A stretch of DNA of 22,229 nt, taken from a virus. The position numbers and the translations under genes were made by a program. A model generated the notes under the pieces. It did no database searches. It saw nothing but the letters and a program-made list of their open reading frames with translations, and was not told the origin of the DNA. Location: positions 1 to 22,229 of the IMG/VR virus record IMGVR_UViG_3300035698_028319, one strand, 5' to 3'. Shown piece by piece: positions 1,127-20,911 of the stretch (its first letter is position 1; each line of letters opens with the position of its first letter).

Positions 1127-1224
1127 GAAACAGGGATAAACGCTGATGAACGCGGATAAGATTGGGGATCTAAGTTCCCCGCTTATCTTCTTAATCAGCG
1201 TTTATCAGCGTTCATCCCTGTTTC
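1127..1224. repeat. 98-bp imperfect palindrome between lon and the adenosyltransferase gene
   Basis: The left arm begins GAAACAGGGATAAACGCTGA and the right arm is its near-perfect reverse complement, ending TCATCCCTGTTTC. The centre is the GGGGA/TCCCC pair around 1165. An 'ACCACAGAGTCACAGAGA' motif sits just outside at 1101-1118. Transcribed in the lon direction it would fold into one long hairpin without a terminal U run. It looks like a dispersed intergenic repeat (REP or MITE-like), possibly acting as an RNA processing or termination element after lon. Confidence 0.75.
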
Positions 1225-1250
1225 GATTCTTCCATCCTCATCCCTGCGGT

Positions 1251-3797: not shown

Positions 3798-3830
3798 CCG
3801 TATGAAATAATAAACTCATGTCTATCGCAT

Positions 3831-4247: not shown

Positions 4248-4284
4248 GAGGGTGTCTCGTCGTCCGTTCGCGTTCGGGAAGTGT

Positions 4285-4312
4285 ATCCTAACCGATCCGC
4301 CCGGGCTGTCAG
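4285..4312 (-). promoter_or_regulatory. Candidate sigma-70 promoter for hsp20-lon
   Basis: Reading the minus strand, CTGACA (4312-4307) and TAGGAT (4290-4285) are separated by 16 bases and lie about 38 bases before the hsp20 start. The match to -35 is 5/6 and to -10 is 4/6. No CIRCE or other heat-shock operator was recognised. Confidence 0.35.
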
Positions 4313-4341
4313 AACGGATGGTCCCGAAACGTTTTCCCGGC

Positions 4342-4347
4342 TATAAT
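4342..4347 (+). promoter_or_regulatory. Candidate -10 box (TATAAT) for folE2
   Basis: A perfect TATAAT lies 107 bases before the folE2 ATG in the divergent hsp20-folE2 gap. No convincing -35 box precedes it at 17 bases, so it is a weak call. No riboswitch fold (for example preQ1 or THF) was evident in the leader. Confidence 0.3.
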
Positions 4348-4454
4348 CGCTGTTTATCCGCTGGATTACGCCGAGGATTGCCCACCGCGATCTACACGCC
4401 TAGTATTGCGGACCACAGACGGGTACCAGCCCCCTCCAACCGCCAGGACACCCC

Positions 4455-5264: not shown

Positions 5265-5302
5265 AGTATCCTGCCCCATCTCTTCTCGTCATGCTCGCCC
5301 AT

Positions 5303-5381
5303 CCCGTCATGCCCGCGCAGGCGGGCATCCAGATGCCCCATGACTCCCAAGACGTGGACCCCCGCCTGCGCGGGAGTGACG
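5303..5381. repeat. Inverted pair of 'CCCGCGCAGGCGGG' intergenic repeats
   Basis: The left arm (5303-5330) reads CCCGTCATGCCCGCGCAGGC and onward. The right arm (5356-5381) is the reverse complement of the same unit with a few changes. Each arm is itself a small palindrome around GCGCAGGC. This unit resembles widespread bacterial intergenic REP-like repeats. It lies just after folE2 and could form a hairpin at the 3' end of its mRNA. Confidence 0.7.
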
Positions 5382-5489
5382 GCGGGCGCGGGGGTGACGG
5401 TGTGCATAGGGGTGACGATTCACGATACGGTATGCCATCCCGCAAGAAGCTATAAAGCAGTTTGCATGAAGACTTACCGCGCCTTTTAT

Positions 5490-5526
5490 GTCACCCCCGC
5501 GCAGCCGGGGGTCAGGGAATGACGGG
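5490..5526. repeat. Third copy of the 'CACCCCCGCGCAGCCGGGGGT' type repeat
   Basis: The sequence GTCACCCCCGCGCAGCCGGG, continuing to GGTCAGGGAATGACGGG, is a diverged copy of the units at 5303-5381 and folds on itself (CCCCCG with CGGGGG). Confidence 0.6.
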
Positions 5527-5645
5527 TAGCCATTACGCAAGACGCGCCGGTGCATTATGTATCGTCATTTCTCGGTATAACGCCGCGGTTTAGCGGGCGA
5601 TCGAAGATCGCCGTGGATGTTCCCCCGGCAAGTGACGGTGAAAGA

Positions 5646-5751
5646 AGCCTTAGCGCGGGTGCCACGTTCTGACCGCGCAGCGGCAAAGCGTGTCCCGCCC
5701 CCCAGACTTTGCCCGACAGGCCAAAGTCTGGCACCCGAACACACTAAGGCT
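5646..5751. repeat. 106-bp palindromic element with nested hairpin
   Basis: The outer arms are AGCCTTAG...CGGGTGCCA (5646-5663) and TGGCACCCG...CTAAGGCT (5730-5751). A nested perfect stem, CAGACTTTG with CAAAGTCTG, lies at 5703-5730. The 'GGGTGCCA' and 'CCAAAGTCTGGCACCC' wording looks like a dispersed intergenic element of planctomycete-type genomes (from memory, not searched). It has no coding capacity of note. Confidence 0.7.
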
Positions 5752-5785
5752 GGATGAGATCGCGCTGACCTGTTCAACCCGTCTT

Positions 5786-5822
5786 ACCCCCTCTCCCCCC
5801 GGGAGAGGGCCGGGGTGAGGGC
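5786..5822. repeat. CCCTCTCCC/GGGAGAGGG palindrome
   Basis: CCCTCTCCC-CCC-GGGAGAGGG is a perfect 9-bp stem, followed by CCGGGGTGAGGG. This pattern is seen in intergenic DNA of many bacteria. It is the third repeat family in the 729-bp gap between folE2 and the SPFH gene; no gene was recognised in that gap. Confidence 0.65.
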
Positions 5823-5993
5823 CGACCACCTGATTCGCCCCGCCTCAACCTTACGTCCCGCCTTCGCAACAACACCTGCACACCTTCCCAGCACCGGGCA
5901 CCGAACGCCCCGCACTTTCTGCTAAGCTATCCCCACAAACATCACGCGCCCAACGATCCGGCGCTTCACCATACACGCTCAGGGCAAACCCTC

Positions 5994-6890
5994 ATGAATA
6001 ACTCCACCAAACTCGTCCCCGTCGCCGTCCTGCTGGTCATCATCGGCCTGCTAGGCTCCTGGCTCTTCAAGAGTGTCCCCGCCGGGCACGTCTCCGTCGC
6101 CACATTGTTCGGCAAGGTAATTCAAGACCCCTATCAGCCGGGCCTGCACTTCCCGGTCAACCCGCTGTACCGCTGGTCCGACTACGACGCCCGGCAGAAG
6201 ACCCACATGGAGACCGCCGAGGTCCCAAGTCAAGACCAACTCACCACGAAGATCGATGTCTCCGTGCAGTACCGCATCAAGGCCGACATGGCCCCCATGA
6301 TCCTGACGAACACCGGCTCGGTCGAGCAGGTCATAGCCGTCCACCTGGTCCCCAAGCTCCGTTCGGTCCTGCGTGAACAGGGCAAGACCATCAAGCGGGC
6401 CGAAGACTTCTTCCTGGAAGAAACCCAGAACCAGCTCCAGATGGCGTTGATGGAGTCGTTGCAGGAATCGCTGGAAGAGAACGGCCTGATCGTCACCGAA
6501 GTCCTCATCCGTGACATCACCCTGCCGCAATTTATTAACCAGGCGATCGAGCGGAAGAAAGAACGGGAGCAGGAAGCCGAACGCCAGAAGGCCGAGCTTG
6601 ATCGTTTCCGCACCGAACAGCAGCAACTCGTCGCCGAGGCCGAAGCCAAGCGTGAAGCCGCCGAGCAGGAAGCCATGCAGCGCGTGCTCCTCGCCGACGC
6701 CCAGGCCTACGAGATCGAGAAGATCAACGAGGCGATCTCCGGCAACCCGGCCTACATCCAACTCGAAGCCCTCAAAGCCCTCCAGGAAATCTCCAAAGAC
6801 CCCGCCGCCAAGGTCTACTTCCTGAACTCCGATTCACCGATGCCGCTACCGCTGATGCACATGGGCGACGTTGCGACGCCGAAGCCCTGA
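5994..6890 (+). CDS. SPFH/prohibitin-domain membrane protein
   Basis: The 298-aa protein has an N-terminal membrane segment (about residues 8-26) followed by the basic-flanked KSVPAGHVSVATLFGKV motif that opens prohibitin-type SPFH domains (about 28-195). A long charged helix follows (AIERKKEREQEAERQKAEL region, about 185-245) that should form a coiled coil. The GLHFPVNPLYR turn and LREQGKTIKRAEDFF resemble HflC/prohibitin proteins. These proteins form large ring scaffolds at the membrane and commonly modulate AAA+ proteases such as FtsH; here that link is only inferred. Neither an hflK partner nor an NfeD partner is adjacent. The ATG at 5994 has CAGGG about ten bases upstream, a weak ribosome site. 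Confidence 0.88.
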   Translation: MNNSTKLVPVAVLLVIIGLLGSWLFKSVPAGHVSVATLFGKVIQDPYQPGLHFPVNPLYRWSDYDARQKTHMETAEVPSQDQLTTKIDVSVQYRIKADMAPMILTNTGSVEQVIAVHLVPKLRSVLREQGKTIKRAEDFFLEETQNQLQMALMESLQESLEENGLIVTEVLIRDITLPQFINQAIERKKEREQEAERQKAELDRFRTEQQQLVAEAEAKREAAEQEAMQRVLLADAQAYEIEKINEAISGNPAYIQLEALKALQEISKDPAAKVYFLNSDSPMPLPLMHMGDVATPKP

Positions 6891-7706: not shown

Positions 7707-7741
7707 TGCCTGAAAACTATGTACCAGCCTCAATGAGAGTC
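7707..7741 (+). repeat. Left terminal inverted repeat of the IS3-family element
   Basis: It begins TGCCTGAAAACTATGTACCA and ends AATGAGAGTC. With two small gaps it pairs with the reverse complement of 8972-9007: shared blocks TGCC, AAAACT, CCAG and AATGAGAGTC. The orfB stop lies inside this repeat. Confidence 0.8.
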
Positions 7742-8601
7742 GGTGGTGTGAGGGCTGATTCTATCACTGGGCGTAACGGAGTGCAGGGGAGGGGCGCAGC
7801 CCCGAGCCGGAACGCAGGCACGCCCAGTGAGGCGGCGAATCGAGCTGGGGGTTGATACGACAGTGACGAATGTGGACGCCGGTGGTTGTAGTGGTTCTTC
7901 CACCAGGCGCTGACCTGCCTTGCTTCGGCCAAGTCGGCGAACGATTCCTGGTTGAGTACTTCATCGCGGAACCGGCTGTTAAAACTTTCCGCATACCCGT
8001 TTTGCCAAGGTGCACCGGGTTCGATGTACAGCGTGTTGATATCCATCTGTCCCAGGAACACCTGGATCGCCTGGGCAATAAACTCAGGCCCGTTGTCCGA
8101 GCGGATGTGGCCGGGTGTGCCTCGGATCATCATCAATTCGCAGAGCACATCCAGAACATCTTGAGCCTTGAACGAACGACGCACCTCTACCGCCAAGCCT
8201 TCCCGCGTAAACTCATCCTCGATCATCAGCCAACGCAGCGCCCGGCCATGTTCATCTCGGTCGTGGATGAAGTCCCAGCACCACACCTCGTTGATCGACT
8301 CGGCCTTCTGTCGCATGATCCCGTTCCCGCTGACGCCAAGACGCCGCTTCTTTACTTGTTTTATAGGCACTTTGTAGCCATGCTCCCGCCACAGCCGATA
8401 CACGCGGTCACGCCCAACGGCGAACCCATCTTCTACCAACAACCCATGGATCATGCGGTAGCCATACCGAGGGTGCTGACAAACCAACGCTTCGATCGCT
8501 TCAAGCAACACGCCTTGATCCTCCTTGATCCGACGTTGGTAGCGCTGCGTGCTTCGCGGCTGATCCAGTGCCCGACACGTCCGACGTTCGCTGGTGTTCA
8601 T
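7717..8601 (-). CDS. IS3-family transposase OrfB (DDE integrase domain)
   Basis: The catalytic half of the transposase starts at an ATG at 8601, but homologous sequence (SPTRRREAVVHVRRQ) extends upstream in the same frame to about 8652, so the working protein is probably the OrfAB fusion made by -1 frameshifting. In order there is the HTH_21-type linker (EALVCQHPRYGYRMIHGLL) and the rve integrase core with the three acidic residues in WCWDFIHD, RSDNGPEF and NGYAESFNSRFRDE. The last two catalytic residues have 35 residues between them, the DD(35)E spacing. The HYNHRRPHSSLSYQPPARFA C-terminus is standard for the family, followed by an unusual 30-residue tail reading into the left terminal repeat. 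Confidence 0.92.
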   Translation of the reverse strand: MNTSERRTCRALDQPRSTQRYQRRIKEDQGVLLEAIEALVCQHPRYGYRMIHGLLVEDGFAVGRDRVYRLWREHGYKVPIKQVKKRRLGVSGNGIMRQKAESINEVWCWDFIHDRDEHGRALRWLMIEDEFTREGLAVEVRRSFKAQDVLDVLCELMMIRGTPGHIRSDNGPEFIAQAIQVFLGQMDINTLYIEPGAPWQNGYAESFNSRFRDEVLNQESFADLAEARQVSAWWKNHYNHRRPHSSLSYQPPARFAASLGVPAFRLGAAPLPCTPLRPVIESALTPPTLIEAGT

Positions 8602-8622
8602 CTGACGACGAACATGAACGAC

Positions 8623-8634
8623 CGCCTCTCGGCG
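8623..8634 (-). other. GNRA-type hairpin downstream of the IS3 slippery site
   Basis: On the minus-strand RNA CGCC-GAGA-GGCG forms a 4-bp GC stem capped by a GNRA tetraloop. It starts 17 bases after the slippery heptamer, further than the 5-9 bases usual for a stimulatory structure, so a role in frameshifting is possible but unproven. Confidence 0.35.
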
Positions 8635-8645
8635 ACGTGTCGGGC

Positions 8646-8939
8646 TTACTCGTTTCCCAGATGCTCCAACGCCGACTTGAGGATGTCCTTATCCAGATGC
8701 GCATCGGCCAGCAGCTTCTTGAGCCGAGCGTTTTCCTGTTCAAGTTCCTTGAGTCGCTTGGCTTCGCTGGCCTTCATCCCACCGTACTGTTGACGCCAAC
8801 GATGATACGTGGCCTCGCTGACCACCAGGGCCTGCAACACCCGCCCCAGCGGCTGACCTGTATTCAGCAGACGGTCTGCCTCCTTGAGTTTTTCGACGAT
8901 CTGTTGAGGGTTGTGACGACGACGCTTCTTCTGTGACAT
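8646..8939 (-). CDS. IS3-family transposase OrfA (HTH_Tnp_1)
   Basis: A 97-aa DNA-binding protein of the IS3 OrfA type. The helix-turn-helix lies in NPQQIVEKLKEADRLL to ATYHRWRQQYGGM, and a leucine-zipper-like coiled coil follows (SEAKRLKELEQENARLKKLLAD), which mediates transposase dimerisation. I chose the ATG at 8939 because AAGGAG sits six bases upstream; an in-frame start at 8957 lacks this. The gene ends at TAA 8646 right after GGA-AAC-GAG, where ribosomes can slip into the orfB frame. OrfA alone normally binds the IS ends and represses transposition in this family. Confidence 0.92.
   Translation of the reverse strand: MSQKKRRRHNPQQIVEKLKEADRLLNTGQPLGRVLQALVVSEATYHRWRQQYGGMKASEAKRLKELEQENARLKKLLADAHLDKDILKSALEHLGNE
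8652..8658 (-). promoter_or_regulatory. Slippery heptamer G-GGA-AAC for -1 frameshifting (orfA to orfB)
   Basis: In the orfA frame the codons are CTG GGA AAC GAG TAA. G-GGA-AAC fits X-XXY-YYZ exactly. A slip of -1 continues as CGA GTA AGC CCG, giving R-V-S-P-T-R-R, the normal start of the OrfB domain, which itself has no good start codon before 8601. It lies one sense codon before the orfA stop. Confidence 0.65.
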
Positions 8940-8971
8940 CCAAGTCTCCTTGCCCAATCAAGGGCAGTAGA

Positions 8972-9007
8972 GACTCTCATTCAAACTGGATCAAGTTTTA
9001 CGGGGCA
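8972..9007 (-). repeat. Right terminal inverted repeat of the IS3-family element
   Basis: Read on the minus strand it starts TGCCCCGTAAAACTTGATCC and ends AATGAGAGTC. It matches the left repeat at 7707-7741 and lies just upstream of the orfA ribosome site. Confidence 0.8.
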
Positions 9008-9634
9008 CGCCAGCGTGACATTCACATCCATGAATTCCGCCTCTAATACCACTAGTGTTTCGGGCCTGGTGTCCTGCTCGATTGGTGTAGTTGTTAGGTC
9101 TGCGAGATCTATGAGTTGTTGGATTTCACTTGGTGATAATGCGCGGTTATATACCCTCACATCGTCGATCGAGCCATCGAAATTCTGGGCCCCACTTGGG
9201 TTGTCGCCAATTCTGATTACCTGATTGGCAGTCGAGACTGTACCGGTAAGATTGGTCTTTCCAACTTCGACACCATCCTTAAATAGACGAAGTGTGTGCC
9301 CGTCGTAAGTCATGACGGCATGGACCCATATTCCAGGTACAAGTAGTCCAGAGCTTGCGCTCAATTTCATTGTGCTATCGCCGCCACCAGGATCGGTGCG
9401 GAGCCGGGCACGCAAACGCATACCCTCTTGCCTGACCGTTCCCAGCATCCAGAAGTGGTCTTCGTCAGCAGCAGAAGAGGCCTTAGATATGATCCTTGCC
9501 TCGGCGAGGTCGAAGTCGTCGGGTCGGACCCACGCGGCAATCGTGATTCCGTTGTCGCCATTTAGTGGTGTCGCAACCGTATTCGGGTCACGAATATAAG
9601 CTGCAGCGGTCGAACCAATTCTGATCGTGAAAAT
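9008..9634 (-). pseudogene. LamG-domain (concanavalin-like) protein fragment, broken at both ends
   Basis: The frame reads GSTAAAYIRDPN, then ITIAAWVRPDDFD, then WVHAVMTYDGHTLRLFKDG, then IRIGDNPSGAQNFDGSIDDVRVYNRALSPSEI. This is a near-complete LamG/jellyroll lectin fold with its closing 'G-IDDVRVYNRALS-SEI' signature. It has no start codon: the frame is closed upstream by TGA at 9635-9637, where the LamG similarity stops. The 3' end is cut by the IS3 element at 9007, after which seven IS-encoded residues precede a stop. Intact relatives are large secreted or surface proteins that bind carbohydrates. It is a remnant created by at least two events. Confidence 0.75.
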
Positions 9635-9700
9635 TCAGCCAGAAACGGAGTTTGCGAGCGATCGGAGACCTTTCTGGGCCACCTTGCAAGATGTCGGATC

Positions 9701-9916
9701 GTGCCGCTCAATGGCGACGCGTGGGGATGCGGCGTCTATAAGAAAGGTAACGAGGTGATCACCGACCCAGAACGAATGACCCAAGAACAGCGAGATCAGG
9801 AAGTGGCCCATCTTCTTGCTCGTTCATTATGGCGTATCCACGAGCTGGCCAAGAGGTCGAGGGTGACGGGCAAGTCTGACCCAGACAATGAAGCTCGGCC
9901 GGTGACTGAGAAATAA
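9701..9916 (+). CDS. Small hypothetical protein (71 aa, or 46 aa from an internal ATG)
   Basis: I do not recognise the family with certainty. The core MTQEQRDQEVAHLLARSLWR, continuing IHELAKRSR, is an amphipathic charged helix. The frame starts with GTG at 9701; the ATG at 9776 (MTQEQRDQ) gives 46 aa and fits the helical core better. No good ribosome site precedes either. The frame is also open upstream without a start, so this may be the tail of a larger broken gene. It lies at the boundary between the LamG remnant and the accessory genes. The existence of a product is uncertain. Confidence 0.4.
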   Translation: MPLNGDAWGCGVYKKGNEVITDPERMTQEQRDQEVAHLLARSLWRIHELAKRSRVTGKSDPDNEARPVTEK

Positions 9917-10002
9917 ATTCAGCGAGACACCGGTGCAGACGAGATGGTTGGGTGTCAGGAAACCAACGTTTTCTGAATCTCTTTGGCTGTGGGCCTTCGG
10001 TA

Positions 10003-10512
10003 TTAATGTCTGTTCTTTGCCTTCCCGTCCATGTAGGGAGCGATGCAATCAGTAATTTCCCTGGTGTTGTAGGAGCGGCCGGCAAGCACCCGCAGGAGCG
10101 GCAGTCCTGCTGCCCTAAAAGCCTGCTCTACCTCCATGTCTCGCTGCTGTCTCTTCGGCTTCGCATGGCTTGGCTCGTCTAGCTCGATCGCTACCAGTGG
10201 TCTTAGCGTGTCCGGGTCGCAAATCAGGAAATCCACGCTCCGGCGAGACAGCTTGTTCCACCAGGTTGCCCGGCCTAGATTCGTACTGTTGGTGCCCGGC
10301 AGGTAGATCAACTGAGCGAGTGAAACCTGTGCGAGTATGTGTCCCCGCTCGCCGAGCACGTGCCTCAATACCAGATAGAAGTTCTTTTCGGATGCAGTGA
10401 TGAACTTCTTGTTGACCATCATTTTGGGCAGGCTTGGCTCCGGCTCCTGACTTCCGAATGAGGCAAGGAACCTTAAACAGGTGGGGAGGCAACCTTTACG
10501 TTGTTCAGCCAT
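10003..10512 (-). CDS. DUF2726-domain protein, predicted PD-(D/E)XK-type nuclease fold
   Basis: The 169-aa protein has the DUF2726 layout: SLPKMMVNKKFITASEKNFY leads into a helix (LVLRHVLGERGHILAQVSL). A central core follows with RSVDFLICD (Asp94), LVAIELDEPSH (Glu110, Asp112, His116), KRQQRD (121-125) and GLPLLRV (136-142). The V-D-F ... A-I-E-L-D-x-x-S-H ... R-x-x-D series is typical of the domain and resembles restriction-endonuclease-like folds. No substrate is known. The start at 10512 is the only one that keeps the usual pre-domain segment; it lacks a ribosome site, and tandem ATGs at residue 31 are an alternative. The standalone domain beside hipBA and a prophage suggests accessory DNA metabolism or defence, which is inference. 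Confidence 0.8.
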   Translation of the reverse strand: MAEQRKGCLPTCLRFLASFGSQEPEPSLPKMMVNKKFITASEKNFYLVLRHVLGERGHILAQVSLAQLIYLPGTNSTNLGRATWWNKLSRRSVDFLICDPDTLRPLVAIELDEPSHAKPKRQQRDMEVEQAFRAAGLPLLRVLAGRSYNTREITDCIAPYMDGKAKNRH

Positions 10513-10857
10513 GGAGGAATCCCTATTGAAGAGCTTAGATGAGCCGCCATCATACCGATTCGCTGGCCTGGGCCCGTGGTTGAAATTGCCTTCATCGGGG
10601 GTTATTCCTGTTCCTTAACCGTCTCCGCACCCGATGTTTGCAGTTTCATCAGGCTCGTGAATGAACCACATTAACGTTTTGTATTTTGCCCGAAATGCGC
10701 ACAAACCCCATGATAATCCTATTGTTGGAATATCATATATTAGTTACTGATTAGGTTTGCCTTGTTTGGATACATCCTGATCCGGCGTGGTATTAGGTCC
10801 GTCAGTACATGCGGGAGCCATCGGTAGGCTGCCATTGAAACAACGAATCAATTTGCA
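10513..10857. other. Gene-free spacer between the DUF2726 gene and hipA
   Basis: These 345 bases carry no ORF with recognisable similarity and no clear hairpin terminator. The middle (about 10660-10760) is more AT-rich than its surroundings, as expected for a promoter region of the minus-strand DUF2726 gene, but no consensus boxes stood out. Confidence 0.5.
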
Positions 10858-12162
10858 TCAAATAAGGTCAAGCCTGAGCGTCTTGGCGATGGCATTAACT
10901 TGATCCGGGAGAACCTTAGCCTCGTCTGCAAACTCGCGCCAACGATTCACTGCATCGGTTACTTCACGGGCAATTGCCTCGGCCCGCCCGCGCTTCAGAG
11001 AGATCGTTTTCGCTGCGGCCTTAAAATCATCGAGGGTAAATCCGTCACGCTTATTGTTAAGGCTCATTTGGTGTTGGGATGTCCATGCCCCATCGGGGTT
11101 ATAGCTATAGATCACATCAAAAGCCGGTGCGAGCGACCAACGACCTGATTTGTCCATCAAGAATGCGATGTTCTTCACATGATCGTCCTGGTTCCTTGCG
11201 ATGATGTTGAACACCATGCGGCGGAACTGCTCCTCGGTCTCATCCATCGACAGATCCAGGCGTCGAATAACCAGGAGGGCCTGCTCATACGAGTTGCCAC
11301 CAGCGTTGTTGAAGTCTAAGTGTGCCATCGCACCCAGCGACTGCATGTGCAGTTTCTCGCCATCGGCAAGGCGATCAAAGCGGCGTGTCATGAAGTGTCG
11401 GCGGTCATTCTCTTCGAACAGTCGGCAATCAGACATGCGGATGCCAGCCGCTCTGGCCATCAGCGAGTAGGCGTATTCGATTGCGCCGTATCCCTTCGGA
11501 TCAGCGAGTTCCTTGTCGCGGTTGTCGGAAATACCATCGAACTTTAGCAGCCAATATTCGAATCCTGCCGGTGCCTTGACTTGTCCGCTGAGTACCGCAT
11601 TGGTCTTGGGGTTCCAGGCGATGGCCGCCTTTGCGCGGGCACCGCCGGCCGATGCGCCCACACGCAGGATCTCGCGTAACGCATGCTCCTTGACTTCATC
11701 GGCGAACGAAGCCTGAAGGCTCTCGCGACTTTTGAGTACATCCGACGCGAGTTCAACCAGAGCATCAACTTGTACCGGCATCGATTGATCTGCTTGTGGT
11801 CCTTTTGCTGGCTGAAACTCAAGTGCCCCCATGCCACGGGTCCCGGTATAGCACAGACGTTCGACTGCATCGATTTCTCCAGGAAGCTTGCCTTGGGTAG
11901 CGAGCCAAGCATCGATGACCGCGTTACCGAACTTGTCTGGCAAGGCGTCCGCCAAGAGCCCCGGTAGGCCGTTGAATGACTTCATGGATAAATCGGGGAA
12001 CCGATAGATACGATCTTCAAGCGGCATCATCAGCGGGGCGATCTCAATCCCACTTTTCTGGAAAGCGTCGGTGTATTCGAACGACGCGATTTCCTTCGGA
12101 CCCTCTACAGAGACGGCACCAATCATACGGCCCCACAGTCGGACTTCAGCGATAGTGCTCAT
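10858..12162 (-). CDS. hipA: HipA-like type II toxin, serine/threonine kinase
   Basis: The 434-aa protein is the normal HipA length. The N-terminal domain shows FNGLPGLLADALPDKFGN (63-80), the HipA N1 hallmark. The kinase region contains the Ser/Gly-rich loop VGASAGGARAK (168-178), the ATP-binding Lys207 in WLLKFDG, the catalytic loop NQDDHVKN (324-331, Asp327 and Asn331), and the metal-binding FDV with Asp349 (LAPAFDV). All key residues are present, so the kinase is probably active. E. coli HipA phosphorylates glutamyl-tRNA synthetase and causes growth arrest; the target here is unknown. It is translationally coupled to hipB through an ATGA overlap (12162-12159). It sits beside a prophage and may travel with it. 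Confidence 0.93.
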   Translation of the reverse strand: MSTIAEVRLWGRMIGAVSVEGPKEIASFEYTDAFQKSGIEIAPLMMPLEDRIYRFPDLSMKSFNGLPGLLADALPDKFGNAVIDAWLATQGKLPGEIDAVERLCYTGTRGMGALEFQPAKGPQADQSMPVQVDALVELASDVLKSRESLQASFADEVKEHALREILRVGASAGGARAKAAIAWNPKTNAVLSGQVKAPAGFEYWLLKFDGISDNRDKELADPKGYGAIEYAYSLMARAAGIRMSDCRLFEENDRRHFMTRRFDRLADGEKLHMQSLGAMAHLDFNNAGGNSYEQALLVIRRLDLSMDETEEQFRRMVFNIIARNQDDHVKNIAFLMDKSGRWSLAPAFDVIYSYNPDGAWTSQHQMSLNNKRDGFTLDDFKAAAKTISLKRGRAEAIAREVTDAVNRWREFADEAKVLPDQVNAIAKTLRLDLI

Positions 12163-12518
12163 TTCTCACTCCCTTCCTCGTCCCACGTCCATTCGTGGCC
12201 GTCCTCAGGTTGCTTGGACCGGGGCGCGGCTCTTTTTCTCTGTTTGCCCTGGGTCTTGAGTTGTTCGATTGGGCTTGGCGTTGGTGGCGGGATGAACGCA
12301 TCCAGGTTGTCTAAGAGGTCAAGCGCCCGGATGATCTTGATCAGATTCGTCAGTTGTGTTGATTCGCCGCCTTCGAGCCTAAGCAGTGTGCGTTTCGATA
12401 CACCCGCCTCACGGGCTAGTTCAGCCTGTGTGAGGTTGCGTTCCAGTCGATACCGGGCGAGCCGGTTGCCGATCTCGGCCAATACTGCTGGGTCCGTCAT
12501 GTGATAGTCCGTATTCAT
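12159..12518 (-). CDS. hipB: HipB-like antitoxin, XRE-family helix-turn-helix
   Basis: The 119-aa protein has an XRE/Cro DNA-binding domain at about residues 14-72 (IGNRLARYRLERNLTQAELA, then REAGVSKRTLLRLEGGESTQ). A long basic and proline-rich tail (PPPTPSPIEQLK, KQRKRAAPRSKQPEDG) ends acidic. In E. coli HipB binds HipA, neutralises it and represses the operon; the tail here is longer and different. The antitoxin is first and the toxin second, as usual. Two starts are possible: ATG 12518 (chosen, 11 bases after the likely transcript start) or ATG 12500. Neither has a Shine-Dalgarno site, so near-leaderless translation is likely. Confidence 0.88.
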   Translation of the reverse strand: MNTDYHMTDPAVLAEIGNRLARYRLERNLTQAELAREAGVSKRTLLRLEGGESTQLTNLIKIIRALDLLDNLDAFIPPPTPSPIEQLKTQGKQRKRAAPRSKQPEDGHEWTWDEEGSEK

Positions 12519-12799: not shown

Positions 12800-13213
12800 T
12801 TAGGTCGTCCCGTTCGCTCGGCCCTCCGCGTCCGGCGCGCTGGTGGTGGCTGCATCATCATCATGTTTGTACGGCACCAGCTTGTTGAGTGCGGCCTGGC
12901 GCTGTTTACAACCGCCACAAGGCTTGATGCCCATGGCCTTGGTTGCCTTGGCGATGGTGTCGCCGAGGCCTCGGCTCCGTCGGGGCCTGGGGGCGACATA
13001 GGGTTTACGTTGCGGCTTCGCTTCGTCGGTTGCCTTTGGTTTATTGATCCATTCGACGCCGTGCGGGCAGTCGAAGTCGGGGTCGTCATCGGGCAGCGAA
13101 AACGATTGGGCCAGCTGCTCCCGAAATCGTCTTGATGACCGGCATACCTTGCATGCGCCGCGTTCCCTTCTGCTTGAGCAATGGATGGTGTCTGTGAATA
13201 GCGGCAGCTTCAT
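12800..13213 (-). CDS. Small phage protein with paired cysteines (GIKPCGGC motif)
   Basis: The 137-aa protein has six cysteines: C12, C21, C24 and C49 at the N-terminus (HC...ACKVC...DCPHG), which could bind one zinc, and C99/C102 in GLGDTIAKATKAMGIKPCGG. That second block, ending ALNKLVPY, is one I recall from small proteins at the end of tail modules in phages of several phyla (from memory). I chose the ATG at 13213 because it follows the upstream stop by one base and has GGGGGA as ribosome site; a longer frame from 13288 overlaps that gene. The linker (PKATDEAKPQRKPYVAPRP) is disordered and basic. The function is unknown. Confidence 0.75.
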   Translation of the reverse strand: MKLPLFTDTIHCSSRRERGACKVCRSSRRFREQLAQSFSLPDDDPDFDCPHGVEWINKPKATDEAKPQRKPYVAPRPRRSRGLGDTIAKATKAMGIKPCGGCKQRQAALNKLVPYKHDDDAATTSAPDAEGRANGTT

Positions 13214-13214
13214 G

Positions 13215-15191
13215 TCATCCCCCGAACACAATGGTGATGCTTGGGCAATCAAGCCCGCAATCCCCAACGCACCCTTCCAGTACGGCATCCGTGAGCGTGA
13301 CGCTGCCGGAGAGTTCGCCGGTCTCAGGATCGCAACTCAGATTGGCTTCTTCCGGCGTCCACCCCACGTTGTTTGTTCCGTCATGTATGACGGTGAATAC
13401 CCCTTCTTTGTAATAGACGAATACATAATGATAGGTAGTCGAAAATGGACCTACGATCGCCTTGCGCCATGCCCAGCAGCATTCGTAAAAGGAGCATAGG
13501 CCCGGATCGCTGGACGTATAGGTCCCAGACGGAGAATGGGGACCGCCGTGGAACGTACAATCTCCGTCCCATGTTCCGTTCAACGTGACGGTGCAATCCG
13601 GTTGCTCGCCGCCGCAGGATTCGCACGGGTTGGCAGGGCCGCACGCCGGATCGTCGCAGTCCTCCCGTTCCTCGCCGATGCTCGGATGGTCTTCCTGCGG
13701 GCAGTTCTCCGCTTCATAGACCGTGTAGCACTCCCCGCCGACATCCACGACCTTGCCGACGACCGCTGACAGGTCATCCCGCGTGAACAGATTCACCAGG
13801 CCGTCGCACCGCTCCAGGCGATAACAGGCAGAGCATTCCGAGCACCCGCGCGCGCCGAAGTTAGAGATCACGCCGGTGAGCATCGGACCGGGTGGTGCCT
13901 CCGCGATGACGATGTCCGGCGAGATGACAACGCACACGAGCGTGCCGGTGGCGTTCATTACCAGCAGGACCGTCCCCGCCGGGTAGCTGCCGGTATCGAC
14001 CCACTGCCCGTACCGTCCCCCGCCGCATTTATTGACAGGTGAGTAGCGTCTTTTCTTCGGCCCCGGCGGCGGTGGCGGCGGCCTGGGGTCTGGCCCAGGC
14101 CCCGGGCCCGGCCCGGGCCCCGGCGGGAAGGGAGGGTATGGCGGGTCGGGGTCCCAAGGGGGCGGGTCACCGCCGGTCCCATCGCAATCGGCGAAGGACC
14201 CGCACGATGCCGCCGCATTCCCGATCGAATCTTCCCACCCCGCCGCGTGGGGCGGAACCAGCTTGACGGTCCCGCCCCCGGCTCCCACGATGACCCGGCC
14301 TAAGGGTCTGGTATGCCCGGTCGGCGTCGATCCCGCTTGCAACACCGTCCCGATGTCCGAACACGACCAATCATTGTTGACCGTGACCGTCGATGTTGCT
14401 TCACCGAATGCGTCCAGCCACCCACTTGGGATGCTGGCGGTGCCCCGGAACAGCTCCGTGGATACGCTCATCCACAACGTCGGGTGCTTGCACGGAACGT
14501 CCGATCCATCGACGGGATCGTGGTCCCCGTCCGCACCGCTTGAGTAGGGGAACAGCCCCCCGAAGATGACCACCTCAACCTCGGACGGGGTAAAGGCGAC
14601 CTGGATCGTGAAGCCGGAGGTGTACGAATCGGTCCAGGTCGGGATCGGTCCTACCTGGGTCTGGACTACCAAATGCTCCGTATAGATGTCCGCATCGCAG
14701 TCGCAGTTGTATTGCCACCAGCAACCCTGCCCCACGTATCCGCCGTAGAGATACAGCAGCTTGTTCTGGAAACCTTCCTCGCCGGGCGACGGCTTGCGTT
14801 GGCGCAGCAGCCATTTGTCGTTCAGGTGGATCGAATACTCACCGAGCCTCACCCTTGCGCCGGTGGACGACTCGTCCTCCCCGTCTTCGATGCCGATCAG
14901 GGGCATGCAGCCCTTGAACCCGATGTTGTCGATTTCCAGGTAGAGGCACTTCAAGGCCCGATCGGCGACGGTCCAGAACGTCGCGTTGGGCGGATCGTTG
15001 ACCCCCGGATTGGCCGTATGCGCGGAATGACAGACGTAGTAGACCGCGGGCGACCCGCTGAAGACCAGGTCGCCCACGTCGTAGGAATTGCCACCGGCCC
15101 ACGGGCCACGGTTGACCTTCCAATCGGTGAAGATCGGCAGGCCCATGCCGGTACAGTCACAGCAGCAGCGGTTGCTCGCGGTGCTGGACAT
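13215..15191 (-). CDS. Large cysteine-rich prophage virion/appendage protein
   Basis: The 658-aa protein is in the tail module. In order it shows an N-terminal CCCDC cluster (9-13), then a module at about 24-77 (W...PWAGGNSYDVGDLVFSG...YYVCHSAHT...FWTVAD). The latter resembles carbohydrate-binding modules of the CBM5/12 chitin-binding type. A beta-rich middle follows, then a Pro/Gly hinge at 342-378 (repeated GPGPGP, PPPPPP). Next are a Cys cluster CSECSACYRLERC (450-462), another Cys stretch (512-533), and a C-terminal domain ending CVGDCGLDC (641-649). By my count it has 35 cysteines. This layout suits a host-surface-binding fibre or tip protein. The ATG shares one base with the stop of the upstream gene. 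No exact family was recognised. Confidence 0.7.
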   Translation of the reverse strand: MSSTASNRCCCDCTGMGLPIFTDWKVNRGPWAGGNSYDVGDLVFSGSPAVYYVCHSAHTANPGVNDPPNATFWTVADRALKCLYLEIDNIGFKGCMPLIGIEDGEDESSTGARVRLGEYSIHLNDKWLLRQRKPSPGEEGFQNKLLYLYGGYVGQGCWWQYNCDCDADIYTEHLVVQTQVGPIPTWTDSYTSGFTIQVAFTPSEVEVVIFGGLFPYSSGADGDHDPVDGSDVPCKHPTLWMSVSTELFRGTASIPSGWLDAFGEATSTVTVNNDWSCSDIGTVLQAGSTPTGHTRPLGRVIVGAGGGTVKLVPPHAAGWEDSIGNAAASCGSFADCDGTGGDPPPWDPDPPYPPFPPGPGPGPGPGPDPRPPPPPPGPKKRRYSPVNKCGGGRYGQWVDTGSYPAGTVLLVMNATGTLVCVVISPDIVIAEAPPGPMLTGVISNFGARGCSECSACYRLERCDGLVNLFTRDDLSAVVGKVVDVGGECYTVYEAENCPQEDHPSIGEEREDCDDPACGPANPCESCGGEQPDCTVTLNGTWDGDCTFHGGPHSPSGTYTSSDPGLCSFYECCWAWRKAIVGPFSTTYHYVFVYYKEGVFTVIHDGTNNVGWTPEEANLSCDPETGELSGSVTLTDAVLEGCVGDCGLDCPSITIVFGG

Positions 15192-16141
15192 CAGATACAG
15201 GTCCCGTCCACGCCATTGAGGTAGAAGAAGGTGGCGCGAATCGGCGGCGAGCCGGGCGGACTTCCGGGAAGACCTCCGGGGGCGGGTTCATCGCGCAACC
15301 AGACCACCACGTCGTCGGGCGCGGGCTGGATGGTTAAACCTTCGTTGAGTACATCGACATCGACGCCGTTACCCTGCACCCCTGTGGGACCGTTGCCGGC
15401 CTCGGCGGTGTTGATCGCGTGGGTGTTGGGGTCGAGCGAATCGCCGTAGCGGCCTCCGGGCACGACGGTCCAGTCCGTGCCGTCGTAGGTGACCTCGTCG
15501 AAGCCGTAGTACCAGATGTTGCCGGACTGATCGGCGCTGCCGTAGATGCGGGCCCAGTAGCCGTCGCGGGTGGCCGGACCCAGTCGAACAATCGCCCAGC
15601 ACTCACCGGGAGAAGTGGCCACCTCCTCACGCCAGATGACTTGAGCTGCGCCACCCGCTTTCAGTTCCAGTACCGTGCTGTCGGCGTCCACCACGTCGGC
15701 CTGCGTTCCCATGTTCGCGTTGTTGGGCACACGCAGACGCACGACGCACACGCCATCGATATAAGCCCGACCGATCGCGCCGTCGGCCAGTGGTTCGGCG
15801 AGGATCACGAATCGGCCTGTATGCGTCGGCACGACCGGCACCACACACGACAGCGCGACCTGGCGTTTGAACTCCTCCTCGTGCCCGCCGGATTCACTGT
15901 CGCCGGGTAGGATGATCGGGGTATCGATCCCCAGCACCGCGAACCGCTCCTGGTCGGCACCGGAGGCATTCTTGATGTAGACGATGCCCGTGGCGTTCGC
16001 ACCGGTAGTGGCCGGTTTGCTGGATGCTACGTTCGCCTGGCTCTCGTAGTGCGCACGCGTGACGTCGATGATCGCATTCCAGTCCGAAGCTGGGATGCGC
16101 ATTGGCTGACCGGATTGAACGTGCCGGAGGTTCATTCGCAT
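15191..16141 (-). CDS. Prophage virion protein of unknown function (316 aa)
   Basis: I do not recognise a named family. The protein begins MNLRHVQSGQPMRIPASDWN, then has beta-rich segments (TGIVYIKNASGADQERFAVLGI; GRFVILAEPLADGAIGRAYI; VCVVRLRVPN) and a Gly/Pro-rich C-terminal region (APGGLPGSPPGSPP) before a final strand. The style is that of a structural protein in which modules display sugar- or surface-binding ends. It is translationally coupled with the cysteine-rich protein downstream (TGATG overlap at 15193-15189), so they probably form one structure. ATGs at 16141 and 16135 both follow a GGGGG run; the second has the better spacing. The gene before it in the operon is separated by the inserted GIY-YIG gene. 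Confidence 0.65.
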   Translation of the reverse strand: MRMNLRHVQSGQPMRIPASDWNAIIDVTRAHYESQANVASSKPATTGANATGIVYIKNASGADQERFAVLGIDTPIILPGDSESGGHEEEFKRQVALSCVVPVVPTHTGRFVILAEPLADGAIGRAYIDGVCVVRLRVPNNANMGTQADVVDADSTVLELKAGGAAQVIWREEVATSPGECWAIVRLGPATRDGYWARIYGSADQSGNIWYYGFDEVTYDGTDWTVVPGGRYGDSLDPNTHAINTAEAGNGPTGVQGNGVDVDVLNEGLTIQPAPDDVVVWLRDEPAPGGLPGSPPGSPPIRATFFYLNGVDGTCI

Positions 16142-16203
16142 ACCCCCGCTTTGAGCGTTACGCTAGGTTCACATTGCTCAGGAGAATCAATCGGGAACCA
16201 CTT

Positions 16204-16944
16204 ATGGCCAAAGCACCCAAACTCTCGCCGTCTGTCACCCGCCACCTGGGCCACTACGTCTACCTCTACGTGCGGCCCGACACCGAAGAAGTCTTTTATG
16301 TGGGTAAAGGCAAGGGCAACCGCGCCCTGGCTCATATAGAGGGCAAGGGCAACACACCGCACGATGAGGTGATACGTGAGCTTCACGATCTTGGTCTGAA
16401 GCCCCGGGTTGAGTTGCTGATCCATGGTTTGAAGACGGAAGCCGAAGCCTTCGCCGTGGAGATGGCGGCTATTGACCTGATCGGGTTGGAGCGGCTTTCG
16501 AACCGGGTATACGGCCACAATAAATCTCGACTTGGCAGGATGAGCATTGATCAGGTACGGGCGTTGTATGACCGTAAGCCGGTCAAGATCACGGAACCCG
16601 TCGTGATCATCCGGGTCGCCAGGCGTTTCCACTACGGCATCGATCCCGTCGCGCTCTACGATGCCACGCGTTCGGCCTGGGTGGTGGGTGAGCGCCGCGA
16701 GGGAGCTGAGTATGCGCTTGCGGTGTATGAGAACATCGTGCGGGAGGTCTATAGGATCACCCACTGGCTGCCGTCCGGATCGACGTTCCGCGCCGACAGA
16801 CCGACCCGTGGCCCTGCCGAGGAGCGGTGGGAGTTCGTCGGTGTGGTTGCCGAGGAGAAGGTGCGTAAAAAGTACCTGAACCGGTCGGTAGCAAAACACA
16901 TCCCAAAGCACAGCCAGAACCCGATCCTGTACGTGAATTGTTGA
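16204..16944 (+). CDS. GIY-YIG nuclease (LEM-3-like) inserted antisense in the tail operon
   Basis: The 246-aa protein has the GIY-YIG core in its LEM-3-like form: GHYVYLYVRP (16-25), FYVGKGKGNRALAH (31-44, with the Tyr and Arg/His typical of the catalytic face), and Glu86 in AEAFAVEMAAIDLIG, followed by LSNRVYG (98-104). The C-terminal half (about 130-246) has ALYDATRSAWVVGERREGAE, then EVYRITHW and SQNPILYVNC, a second domain I recall following this nuclease type, possibly PUA-like. It is the only plus-strand gene in the phage block, ending eight bases before the convergent neighbour. I chose the ATG at 16204; the frame extends to 16102 but that part overlaps the divergent virion gene. It is probably a homing endonuclease or moron. 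Confidence 0.82.
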   Translation: MAKAPKLSPSVTRHLGHYVYLYVRPDTEEVFYVGKGKGNRALAHIEGKGNTPHDEVIRELHDLGLKPRVELLIHGLKTEAEAFAVEMAAIDLIGLERLSNRVYGHNKSRLGRMSIDQVRALYDRKPVKITEPVVIIRVARRFHYGIDPVALYDATRSAWVVGERREGAEYALAVYENIVREVYRITHWLPSGSTFRADRPTRGPAEERWEFVGVVAEEKVRKKYLNRSVAKHIPKHSQNPILYVNC

Positions 16945-16952: not shown

Positions 16953-17744
16953 TCACGTGCCGATCCCCAATGAACTAAAACTTCCCTCGCGGTAGACACG
17001 CTCGACGTATGCGGCCACAGGTTTGCGGATCAGCATCTTGGCGGTCGCGTCCTCAGCGGCCTGGTATCTGACCCAGAGGTATTCCCAGCCTTTCTTCTCG
17101 ATGCCCACGATCGAGCCGATGGACAGCCCCGTGACATTGGGTGAGCCCGCGAAGGCGAAGCTGATCTCCCAGGGGTCGTCGCCACGCTGAGTGCCCGCTG
17201 CGCCGAGGAACAGACATTCGCCCGCCGCTAAGCCCTTGAATGAGGCATCATTCACTCGCCCCGTCAATCCGAAGAGCGTCGCTTTGTATGCGGTGTTGAC
17301 CGCACTCGGGGACAGGTAGTGAGTCTCGGAGAAGGTGTAGACCGGCACGGTGATGTCCACACCCCCCACAGAGTCCTCGGTCACACCAATCGCGCCGTCG
17401 AAGATGGGTGCGGCGGGGATGTCGGGGGAGGCGTAGCTCGCCACGGTGGCCAAGGACTGCGTGATGTGTTGCGTGCCCCCGCGTGTCTCGAAGGCGAAGC
17501 TGGACTCGCCGGCCTGGGGTGGGTTCGCTGCGGAGGGCGCGTATCTGACCGTCCCCAACCAGATCAGGTCGTGGATCTCTTCAACCTGCGCATCACTTCG
17601 CACCAGGCCGTTATGTGTGGACGGTGATGCGATCAGTAATTCAGTCCGCGCATCCACATCGTCGGCGAGGTCGCGGATGATGTAAGTGATCTCTGCCGAA
17701 TCATCGGAGAGTATGCGGCCGTATTTTTCCTCAACGATGGGCAT
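16953..17744 (-). CDS. Prophage distal tail / baseplate-associated protein (inferred)
   Basis: The 263-aa protein starts at MPIVEEKYGRILSDDSAEIT. It is followed by a predicted all-beta body: ITYIIRDLADDVDARTELL and later FETRGGTQHITQSLATVASY, VDITVPVYTFSETHYLSP and WEISFAFAGSPNVTGL, then KGWEYLWVRY. The last blocks look like a beta-sandwich with a conserved GWEYLW turn, as in other small tail proteins placed after the tape measure. The name rests on position: genes just after the tape measure normally encode the distal tail and baseplate hub. The start ATG at 17744 is seven bases after the stop of the tape measure gene; a longer frame from 17792 overlaps it and lacks support. Confidence 0.65.
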   Translation of the reverse strand: MPIVEEKYGRILSDDSAEITYIIRDLADDVDARTELLIASPSTHNGLVRSDAQVEEIHDLIWLGTVRYAPSAANPPQAGESSFAFETRGGTQHITQSLATVASYASPDIPAAPIFDGAIGVTEDSVGGVDITVPVYTFSETHYLSPSAVNTAYKATLFGLTGRVNDASFKGLAAGECLFLGAAGTQRGDDPWEISFAFAGSPNVTGLSIGSIVGIEKKGWEYLWVRYQAAEDATAKMLIRKPVAAYVERVYREGSFSSLGIGT

Positions 17745-17751
17745 AGGATTC

Positions 17752-19737
17752 TCAGGCGAACGCGATCGCGTTGTCGTTGATCGCGCGTTCAATGTGTTTG
17801 GTGTTACGGGCGGTGTCTTCGGTGGCCTTGGCGGTGCGCTCGGCGACGCCGCTGTCGGTCATCAAGCCTTGGATCGCGGCGGCGTTGAACGTGCCCCGAA
17901 CACCGATCCGCTCGGCTTCGCGCTCGAGCATGTCACTGAGACCAGACAGATCAGGTGCCCCCGGAATTGGGCTATCGCTACCCACGCCAATTGCGGCACG
18001 GTTGGACTTGGCTTCTGCGATCGCCGCCTCCCACTCCCGCCGCGCGGCGATCAGGGCCTGTTCGGCCTCCAGTTCGGCCTGCGCACGCTCGCTCGCCTGG
18101 CGGGTCTGTTCGTCCTCGTACTTTTGACCGAGGACCCCGAGGGTCTGATCATGGAGGGAGGCGGACCGGTTACGGCGGTTCTGACGGCGCAGGTCGGCCC
18201 CGATCACCGCCTCGCCGGTGTTCTGGTCGATCTGGGCTAGACGTTGTGCCAAGGCCCGGTCGATCTCGGCGTTGGCTTTGCCGGTGTCGAAGCTATCGGT
18301 GAACAGGCCTTTTATAGTGTTCCAGGTCTTGGCGGCCAGGGCCTTCATCTGCTCCCACGAGCCTGTGAAGATGTTGACGAACCCGTACCACGCCTTGGCC
18401 AGGAAGGCGGTAGTTTCGATCCAACCGACCTCCAGGCCGTGCCAGATGGTCTCCAACGTGGCGAGTGCCCCGACGAACGCGCCCACGAGCACGTCCATAA
18501 TGAACCCCCGGAATCTAAGCCAGACACCCTCGATGAAGCTGACACCCTTGATCCACTCCATCTTTAGGGTTAGCCAAAGGATCCTCGCCGCCAGTCCGAT
18601 GTCGCCAGCGGCCAACGCGTCCGCGATGCCCTGGTAGGCCTGCAACGCCGTGTCCTTCAACTCGCCGAAACGATCGCCCAACCACGCCAGCGCCGCACCC
18701 CCGATCCCGGAGGTTTTCACGAGATAAGCCCCGAGCACACCCAATCCCGCGATCACCAGCCCGATCGGCGAGACCAGGAACCCGATCGCGGTCGCGACGA
18801 GTCCGATGCCCGCTGCGGTCACACCCAGGATGGTCGCCAGGCCGCCGAGGACCGCACCCAGTCCCGAGATCAATGTGCCCAATACGATCAGCGCCACACC
18901 GGCAGCCACAACGATCGCAGCGATCTTCGCCACCTGGACGATCAGACCCCGGTTCTGTTTGACCCATTCACTGACTGTTATGACCACGCGGGTGATCGTG
19001 TCGGCCATACTTTGAAGCACAGGGGCCAGAGCCGCACCGATGTTGAAGACGCCCATCTTCACAACCTTCCACAACTGATCGAGCGCATCGGTGAAGTCTT
19101 CCGCCGCCTTGGCGTCTTCGCCCGACATGGTCAGCCCCAAACGGTGCGCCTCGGCCTGCAACGCCTCGATGCCCGCGCTGCCGGCCGCGAACATCGGCAG
19201 CAGGTTTGTACCAGTGCGTCCAAATAGCGACATCGCGATCGCCGCTCGCTTCGTGGGGTCCTCGACCTGACCGATCCGATCCGCTAACAGCTTGAATTGG
19301 TCCTCGGGTGACAGGCCGTCCAGATCCTTGAACGTCAGGCTCAGATCGTTCAACGAATCCACTTGTGTGGACAGACCCCGCCCCGCGTCGTAGATCGACC
19401 GCTGCATCTTGCGGAAGGCCATCTCGAGTGACTCAAACTCGGTGCCGGTCTGGCTGGCCACGAACCGCAGTTCACTGAGTGTTTCGACCGACAGGCCCGT
19501 GCGCTTGGCCATCTTGGCGACCTGGTCGCCGTAACTACTGAACAATTTGGCAGAGGCCGCCAGAGGCGCAAGCACCGCCGCGCCGATGCCGACAGCCATC
19601 AAGCCTAGATTGCGGATCGACGCGCCGAAGGCCTTGAGCTTCCGCTCCGCACGACGAAGCCCGCGCACGAGCTGGCTGTCGTCGGCGAACAACTCGACGA
19701 ACGCACGCCCGGCTCGGATACCTTGTGTGGATGCCAT
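17752..19737 (-). CDS. Phage tail tape measure protein
   Basis: The 661-aa protein opens with GIRAGRAFVELFADDSQLVR, a common tape-measure N-terminus (TIGR01760-like), then a long helical part (SYGDQVAKMAKRTGLSVETL). A strongly hydrophobic Gly/Ala/Val-rich stretch lies at about 265-340 (AAIVVAAGVALIVLGTLISG onward), as expected for the part that enters the host membrane. The C-terminal third is a Gln/Glu/Ala/Arg-rich coiled coil (ERAQAELEAEQALIAARREW). Tape measure length sets tail length; at the usual 0.15 nm per residue this implies a tail near 100 nm, so a siphovirus. It follows the chaperone-like pair by three bases and precedes the baseplate-like gene. ATG at 19737 with GAGA upstream. Confidence 0.93.
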   Translation of the reverse strand: MASTQGIRAGRAFVELFADDSQLVRGLRRAERKLKAFGASIRNLGLMAVGIGAAVLAPLAASAKLFSSYGDQVAKMAKRTGLSVETLSELRFVASQTGTEFESLEMAFRKMQRSIYDAGRGLSTQVDSLNDLSLTFKDLDGLSPEDQFKLLADRIGQVEDPTKRAAIAMSLFGRTGTNLLPMFAAGSAGIEALQAEAHRLGLTMSGEDAKAAEDFTDALDQLWKVVKMGVFNIGAALAPVLQSMADTITRVVITVSEWVKQNRGLIVQVAKIAAIVVAAGVALIVLGTLISGLGAVLGGLATILGVTAAGIGLVATAIGFLVSPIGLVIAGLGVLGAYLVKTSGIGGAALAWLGDRFGELKDTALQAYQGIADALAAGDIGLAARILWLTLKMEWIKGVSFIEGVWLRFRGFIMDVLVGAFVGALATLETIWHGLEVGWIETTAFLAKAWYGFVNIFTGSWEQMKALAAKTWNTIKGLFTDSFDTGKANAEIDRALAQRLAQIDQNTGEAVIGADLRRQNRRNRSASLHDQTLGVLGQKYEDEQTRQASERAQAELEAEQALIAARREWEAAIAEAKSNRAAIGVGSDSPIPGAPDLSGLSDMLEREAERIGVRGTFNAAAIQGLMTDSGVAERTAKATEDTARNTKHIERAINDNAIAFA

Positions 19738-19994: not shown

Positions 19995-20474
19995 TCAGTC
20001 GTCGGAGTCCACGGGGTCCGAGACCGAGGCTTCCCGCGATGCGCCAGACATCGCGCCAGCGATCGTCTGCTCCACATTGATCCCGTCGATCTTGGTTTCG
20101 ATCGCGGTCACCGCCGCGTCGATCATGGCCATCTGTTTCGCGACCGCCTTGGCCCTGTCGTTGCGGCCGCGTGACCGGAAAAAATCAATGAGTTCCTCAT
20201 AGAACGCCTTCTGGGCTGCGAGCAGCGTCTGCCCGTCAAAACTGTTCCGCACGTCGGCCTCGGTGACCTTGTGCGTGACGAACTGGCCTTCGAGCATGGC
20301 GCAGAGCACTTCGCCCAGAAGCATCTCGTCCGTGCCGAGCCGTGTGAGTAACGGCGGATCGCCCGCTTCCGGCTGGAGCAGGTCCACGTTCAGCTTGGCT
20401 TTGACGGCCATGGCGGTGCCGAGGTTGAGCGTGAGTGACCAGGTCCGACTGGATGCGTCATTAAAAGTCTTCAT
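19995..20474 (-). CDS. Tail-assembly-chaperone-like protein (lambda G position)
   Basis: The 159-aa protein starts MKTFNDASSRTWSLTLNLGT. A small beta start is followed by helices (TRLGTDEMLLGEVLCAMLEG, LAAQKAFYEELIDFFRSRGR, then AKAVAKQMAMIDAAVTAIET) and an acidic tail ending DPVDSDD. It lies between the tail tube gene and the tape measure, where siphophages encode the chaperone that coats the tape measure during tail assembly. I chose the ATG at 20474 because GGAGGTG lies a few bases upstream and it overlaps the tail-tube stop (TAATG); a six-residue extension to 20492 would remove that ribosome site. No sequence family name could be assigned. Confidence 0.7.
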   Translation of the reverse strand: MKTFNDASSRTWSLTLNLGTAMAVKAKLNVDLLQPEAGDPPLLTRLGTDEMLLGEVLCAMLEGQFVTHKVTEADVRNSFDGQTLLAAQKAFYEELIDFFRSRGRNDRAKAVAKQMAMIDAAVTAIETKIDGINVEQTIAGAMSGASREASVSDPVDSDD

Positions 20475-20911
20475 TACGCCACCTCCACCCATTCCTCGAA
20501 CTTGGCGAGCTTGGCTGTCACGGAGACGGTCACGCCTTCTTCGAGTGGTTCGTTGCGACTGAAGTTGGTGATACTGAAGTCGCCTCGCGGTCCTTCAGTA
20601 TCAGACGCCGACTTGTCGCCGGTGAGGACGGCCAAGGCGATCGTGGCCGAGGTCAGGAACGCGGTCTTGATCGCGTCGAAGCCGGTGTCGCCGGGCTTCC
20701 AGAGCATCTCGAACTCGGCGGTGCACTCGCGCAGGGTCGGGGCGGTGGCGCGCCAGCCCTGGTTGGCGCGGGTGGTCACATCCGCCTCGCCTGCTTCCAG
20801 ATTCAGCGTCACATCCTTGACGTTGTCCATCTCGGTGAGACTGGCGAGCGCGGTGCCCGTCGGGCCCTGGTAGATCTTGGCGTTCATGCCTAATAGGAAT
20901 TCTTGAGGCAT
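20474..20911 (-). CDS. Phage major tail (tube) protein
   Basis: The 145-aa protein is all-beta in style. The start is MPQEFLLGMNAKIYQGPTGT, then NVKDVTLNLEAGEADVTTRA, EFEMLWKPGDTGFDAIKTAF, and ITNFSRNEPLEEGVTVSVTA near the end. The 'D-T-L-x-x-x-E-A-D-V-T-T-R' and 'E-x-G-V-T-x-S-V-T-x-K' strands match the tail-tube fold of long-tailed phages. Tube subunits stack as hexamer rings around the tape measure. The start codon at 20911 has a strong ribosome site (AAGGAG) nine bases upstream, as expected for an abundant protein. The next gene overlaps its stop. Confidence 0.82.
   Translation of the reverse strand: MPQEFLLGMNAKIYQGPTGTALASLTEMDNVKDVTLNLEAGEADVTTRANQGWRATAPTLRECTAEFEMLWKPGDTGFDAIKTAFLTSATIALAVLTGDKSASDTEGPRGDFSITNFSRNEPLEEGVTVSVTAKLAKFEEWVEVA

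Follow-up and report, generated by a model that had tools for sequence, protein, structure and literature searches.

What does a 658-residue protein containing 35 cysteines do at the end of the tail genes of a planctomycete virus? To our knowledge, the entry of viruses into planctomycetes is poorly understood. The gene in question lies on the minus strand at positions 13215 to 15191 (stop codon included) of the window, the 22,229-base stretch of DNA that we analyzed and that is the whole virus record; the plus strand of the same interval contains several stops. Cysteine makes up 5.3% of the protein versus 0.83% across the other genes in the window (binomial P ~ 1.5 × 10−17) and 0 to 1.3% in the tail genes around it. 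The original prediction had pointed to the 35 cysteines, a CCCDC start, an aromatic-rich module, and a Pro/Gly linker, all of which are present in the minus-strand reading frame (the last three at residues 9 to 13, about 24 to 77, and about 341 to 380, respectively). As this start, module, and linker recur in IMG/VR homologs and in one planctomycete genome, the reading frame is, judged by its sequence, a real conserved gene. Searches of Pfam, PHROG, and the PDB with the whole protein returned nothing, and our literature searches found no description of such Cys-rich proteins.

The surroundings of the gene agree with the proposal that it encodes a phage appendage. The right part of the window holds a minus-strand tail module consisting of genes for a tail tube protein (20474 to 20911; Pfam PF06199, 4.8 × 10−9), a tape measure protein (17752 to 19737; PHROG, 2.2 × 10−42), a 279-residue protein (16953 to 17792), a 316-residue protein (15191 to 16141), and the Cys-rich protein, followed by a small Cys gene. 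The 279-residue protein, encoded between the tape measure and the 316-residue protein that we read as an adaptor, is conserved in relatives, had no family match in Pfam or PHROG, and occupies a possible tail-tip or Dit position. The Cys-rich gene is located within the tail module, after the tape measure and hub genes, as is typical of tail appendages, and from this position we infer that its product is a virion protein. A 280-residue plus-strand reading frame (16102 to 16944) that by eye resembles GIY-YIG separates the adaptor gene from the 279-residue gene; in the relative L002, these two genes adjoin without an insert, which suggests a mobile insertion into the tail operon.

The left third of the window resembles host chromosome, with a Lon protein 94% identical to that of a Phycisphaeraceae MAG, which supports the suggestion that the virus is a prophage. 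The host-type genes at 545 to 6890 (cobalamin adenosyltransferase, Lon, and Hsp20, with FolE2 and HflC/prohibitin recognized by eye) indicate that the virus record includes host chromosome. Between these genes and the tail module, the minus strand (7717 to 12518) carries transposase reading frames, a short LamG-domain reading frame (8981 to 9448), and a HipB/HipA-like pair (10858 to 12518, by eye). Downstream of the Cys-rich gene is a small Cys protein gene on the minus strand (12800 to 13210; phrog_32048; likeliest start, MKLPLF), whose product carries the signature GLGDTIAK..GIKPCGGC..RQ and which occupies the same place in L127. In L132 (8001 to 9026, plus strand), a CC-headed Cys-rich protein ends in an in-frame fusion with a GLGDS..CAGC version of this sequence. 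A relative near the terminase of Nonlabens phage P12024S makes it less likely that the small gene serves the Cys-rich protein specifically. In the L006 phage, the Cys-rich gene is directly followed by a gene for an amidoligase-domain protein (PF12224) with a Cys-rich C terminus (L117, 12892 to 14130, plus strand).

To characterize the protein, we divided it into segments, all on the minus strand. An N-terminal cysteine tag (residues 1 to 16, MSSTASNRCCCDCTGM; 15144 to 15191), which we propose is a docking peptide and which recurs in otherwise unrelated proteins encoded after the adaptor, precedes a CBM5/12-like module (residues 19 to 85; 14937 to 15137). These are followed by a central domain whose cysteines are conserved in the alignment (residues 86 to 340; 14172 to 14936), a Pro/Gly linker lacking cysteine (residues 341 to 385; 14037 to 14171), a C-x2-C-x2-C-x5-C module kept in all homologs (residues 387 to 517; 13641 to 14033), and a Cys-rich C-terminal domain (residues 521 to 658; 13218 to 13631), which is swapped between homologs and is a candidate host-contact tip. 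The central, linker-distal, and C-terminal Cys domains showed no homology to one another by hhalign, and a weak PHROG match (phrog_2225) of the linker-distal module appeared for the L006 copy only. An AlphaFold 2 model of residues 1 to 345 built from seven sequences reached a pLDDT of 39, too weak to judge Cys pairs, and was discarded.

The N-terminal module had been predicted to be of the CBM5/12 type, with a carbohydrate-binding fold at residues 24 to 77, and modeling of residues 19 to 85 supports that fold. In Pfam, the module alone matched only PF02839 (CBM_5_12), below the cutoff (E = 0.014; 15.8 bits against 26.2). Its profile nevertheless aligned with CBM5/12 sequences in hhalign (98%; score, 61; maximum in 200 column shuffles, 18.8) and with three PDB CBM5/12 sequences alone (96%). 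An AlphaFold 2 model whose input was seven of the protein's own homologs, without CBM sequences, had a pLDDT of 79.7. The best Foldseek matches in the PDB, none of which reached an E value of 0.001, were the CBM5 domains of chitinase 4tx8 and of Vibrio chitin oligosaccharide deacetylases, a group in which an Anabaena injection-system base plate also appeared; next came the chitin-binding domain of ChiA1 (1ed7 among the hits) and fibers of phages 7-7-1, A-1(L), and Milano. Named viral Foldseek matches included tail fibers, minor tail proteins, and annotated CBM5/12 proteins, and the module alone gave weak matches in phage proteins, some of them tail fibers. The module therefore resembles CBM5/12 domains in its predicted fold and in the pattern Y..GD.V...Y.C..AHTA...P....W. 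It differs from them in its subthreshold Pfam score, in its place near the N terminus of a phage Cys-rich protein, and in having AHTA where the classical tryptophan pair is expected, although HTA is also found in the CBM5 domains of the Vibrio deacetylases.

The match to CBM5 domains of chitinases and chitin deacetylases raises the question of whether this module is itself the receptor-binding part, attaching to a host polysaccharide, as the original prediction had it, with the cysteines only stiffening the protein. We think this unlikely. Phage fibers usually attach to the virion by the N terminus, and the module is conserved and close to that end, whereas the part that is exchanged is the C-terminal 140 residues; the module may accordingly be structural, with sugar binding as a putative function. 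The missing tryptophan pair points the same way, as does the wide occurrence of similar modules, possibly structural ones, in phage tail proteins.

We then asked whether the cysteines are conserved, as the original prediction expected. Full or partial homologs were found on five IMG/VR contigs (52 to 88% identity over the best segment). The planctomycete genomes, searched with the full protein or its domains, yielded a sole true relative, L094 in genome G002 (about 34 to 38% identity); L095, L097, L098, L121, and L122 were set aside as matching only through the Pro-rich linker, interrupted by stops, or due to chance (L122 is flagellin-like). Among 50,697 GenBank phage records, neither the Cys-rich proteins nor the adaptors had a match, one search giving a chance-level match only. 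All homologs have in common a CCC start, the small module, a Pro/Gly linker, and the postlinker Cys module. Within the core (residues 1 to 518 minus the linker), which has 24 cysteines, L006 keeps all 24 and 54% of other residues (P = 6 × 10−7), and L094 keeps 22 and 36% of other residues (P = 5 × 10−8); core cysteine positions thus do not vary freely. The C-terminal 140 residues are replaced in L005 and L006. In L005, C277 and C330 are lost together, and C54, in the small module, is lost as well; since Cys is frequent at the C54 position in the CBM5/12-like modules that other proteins carry, C54 need not belong to a disulfide.

Conserved cysteines could also bind metal. In this alternative, the same appendage would take up metal in the cytoplasm (zinc or an iron-sulfur cluster, for example) and hold it at its N-terminal CCCxC, C-x5-C-x-C, and C-x2-C-x2-C-x5-C motifs in place of forming disulfides. 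In its favor, the clustered CxxC and CxC motifs are kept in all homologs, and tails assemble in a reducing cytoplasm. We give this reading less than even odds: the adjacent CC pairs, the 5 to 9% Cys content, and the variable number of C-terminal cysteines look more like a disulfide-rich protein, and no metal-binding family matched.

The stop codon of the 316-residue protein overlaps the start of the Cys-rich gene (TGATG), and its C-terminal domain (15194 to 15574, minus strand; GvQgNGvDvD ... VDGTCI) can be followed across phages by alignment. MuA and MuB mark the L005 contig as a Mu-like phage; its tape measure is of another kind, and the tube, tape-measure, neck, and 279-residue proteins of the window find no match there. 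Its Cys-rich protein is nevertheless 73% identical to that of the window, and it matches the C-terminal 120 residues of the adaptor at 42%. The L006 phage, on the other hand, shares 81 to 91% identity with the window in its neck, tube, g165, g279, and adaptor proteins and only 52% in its Cys-rich protein. The adaptor C-domain and the Cys-rich gene thus both occur in a Mu-like phage with otherwise unrelated tail genes, and so the two appear to move as a cassette. We read the 316-residue protein as an adaptor in which the N-terminal part would fit the tail and the C-domain would fit the appendage. The conserved anchor side, the exchanged distal side, and the horizontal transfer between tails are all features of a tail appendage. 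In L131, L142, and L145, the adaptor-domain proteins reach up to 1,199 residues, contain several Cys pairs, and have long tails rich in Ser and Gly.

These observations also bear on whether the protein belongs to the particle at all. An accessory or secreted Cys-rich protein might have come to lie by chance at the end of the tail operon, and the missing family assignment, a Cys content extreme for a tail protein, and a position at the border of the tail module would fit. We nonetheless consider this improbable, as the stop/start overlap with the adaptor gene recurs in unrelated phages, the gene is exchanged together with the adaptor C-domain, a module of the tail-fiber type is present, and no obvious hydrophobic N-terminal signal peptide is visible by eye.

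When the adaptor C-domain served as the query, six further IMG/VR loci emerged, and those with downstream DNA encode, directly or after one or two genes, a Cys-rich protein without detectable similarity to that of the window. These otherwise unrelated proteins share a start of the form M-x(5-8)-CC(C), with CC or CCC at residue 7 to 10, as in YCCCDAGGC (L127), QCCCGDDC (L130), ACCCGGPRRAC (L129), and QCCEDV (L132); the truncated L131 shows ICCCGGQYGC. In a set of 186 longest reading frames from ten sources, six had a CC in the first 20 residues as well as a Cys content of 4% or more, and each of these is encoded after an adaptor; a seventh CC reading frame is antisense, in L130. The other CC-headed proteins are mostly short (155 to 341 residues) and the CBM5/12-like module is not recognized in them by sequence, which further argues against this module as the receptor-binding part.

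For a prospective test, we searched 362 planctomycete genomes with a nine-sequence profile of the adaptor C-domain. Among the new loci for which downstream sequence is present, in L144, L146, and L147, the adaptor stop overlaps the ATG of a CCKC-headed Cys-rich protein, and in L143, a CCCD-headed Cys-rich protein is encoded ~700 bases beyond the adaptor. The L144 and L146 proteins are alike only over their first 18 residues, the pattern that a docking peptide joined to an exchangeable body should give. The exception was L145, where the adaptor domain is part of a long protein that is rich in Ser and contains CC pairs; this stretch yielded no CC-headed gene. Overall, stop and start overlap or nearly overlap between adaptor and appendage genes in the window, L094, L127, L130, L144, and L147, other sequence separates the two in L129, L132, and L143, and L129, L130, L132, L143, and L144 have a tape measure upstream. 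Given the composition of each protein, the probability of CC within the first 20 residues is 0.045 to 0.14, with a product of 1.5 × 10−9 for eight proteins whose loci were partly chosen while looking and are not fully independent (a single genome supplies three of the four prospective loci, and the first 18 residues are the same in L144 and L147).

The reading that we favor, with slightly better than even confidence, is that the Cys-rich protein is an interchangeable tail-tip host-adhesion appendage of a planctomycete siphophage, docked via its N-terminal Cys tag and stabilized by disulfides or metal. The tag would be the plug that fixes such appendages to the adaptor, and the swapped C-terminal domain would be the end that contacts the host. 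After lysis, when the particle is no longer in the reducing cytoplasm, the many cysteines of the protein may pair as disulfides, which is plausible because phage Milano shows them; alternatively, they may bind metal, which the iron-sulfur cluster of lambda gpL in the tail tip makes plausible. We dropped the idea that the C-terminal Cys of the adaptor always pairs with the tag: this Cys is missing in L005, L144, L146, and L147, and a simple Cys-Cys bridge between adaptor and appendage therefore cannot be general.

More tentatively, planctomycete phages may have a previously undescribed plug-and-socket arrangement, in which an adaptor domain (GvQgNGiDvD) receives unrelated Cys-rich adhesion proteins via the M-x(5-8)-CC(C) tag through a covalent (cystine) or metal joint, perhaps even with thiol exchange with Cys-rich planctomycete wall proteins. 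This last contact is speculation. Some planctomycetes have cysteine-rich wall proteins, and the YTV proteins are reported only in Planctomycetales (PMC8567305); the present host, in contrast, looks like a member of the Phycisphaeraceae. The new element is the combination of adaptor and cysteine tag, and the tag is the more notable finding. The original prediction did not give the strand, and the partner adaptor, the cassette behavior, and the sharing of the tag by otherwise unrelated proteins go beyond it. If the arrangement is recurrent, it would help to recognize host-adhesion genes of uncultivated phages when homology gives no lead, and it would allow the use of thiol or metal chemistry in tail-tip assembly to be tested simply.

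Among known systems, Agrobacterium phage Milano has a disulfide-linked virion (PMC10491603). It resembles the present case in structural-protein Cys content far above normal, for which particle stabilization is proposed, and the cysteines here are conserved, as would be expected of a disulfide-stabilized virion protein (24/24 in L006 and 22/24 in L094). In Milano, however, the cysteines are spread over many structural proteins (2.4%), whereas here they are concentrated in one protein (5.3%) and nearby tail proteins have almost none, and a profile search of PDB chains found no sequence relation to Milano proteins. Lambda gpL, with its iron-sulfur cluster at the tail tip (PMC10721106), is likewise a tail-tip protein with conserved cysteines. 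Its four cluster cysteines lie in one domain, and PHROG, Pfam, and PDB searches gave no match of our protein to the gpL family. A further parallel is the class of phage receptor-binding proteins that combine a conserved N-terminal anchor with a variable body. The Cys-rich proteins resemble them in a short conserved N terminus behind a shared adaptor, a variable remainder, and horizontal exchange; they differ from them in that a CC(C) cysteine tag would serve as the anchor, and in the high cysteine content of the variable part.
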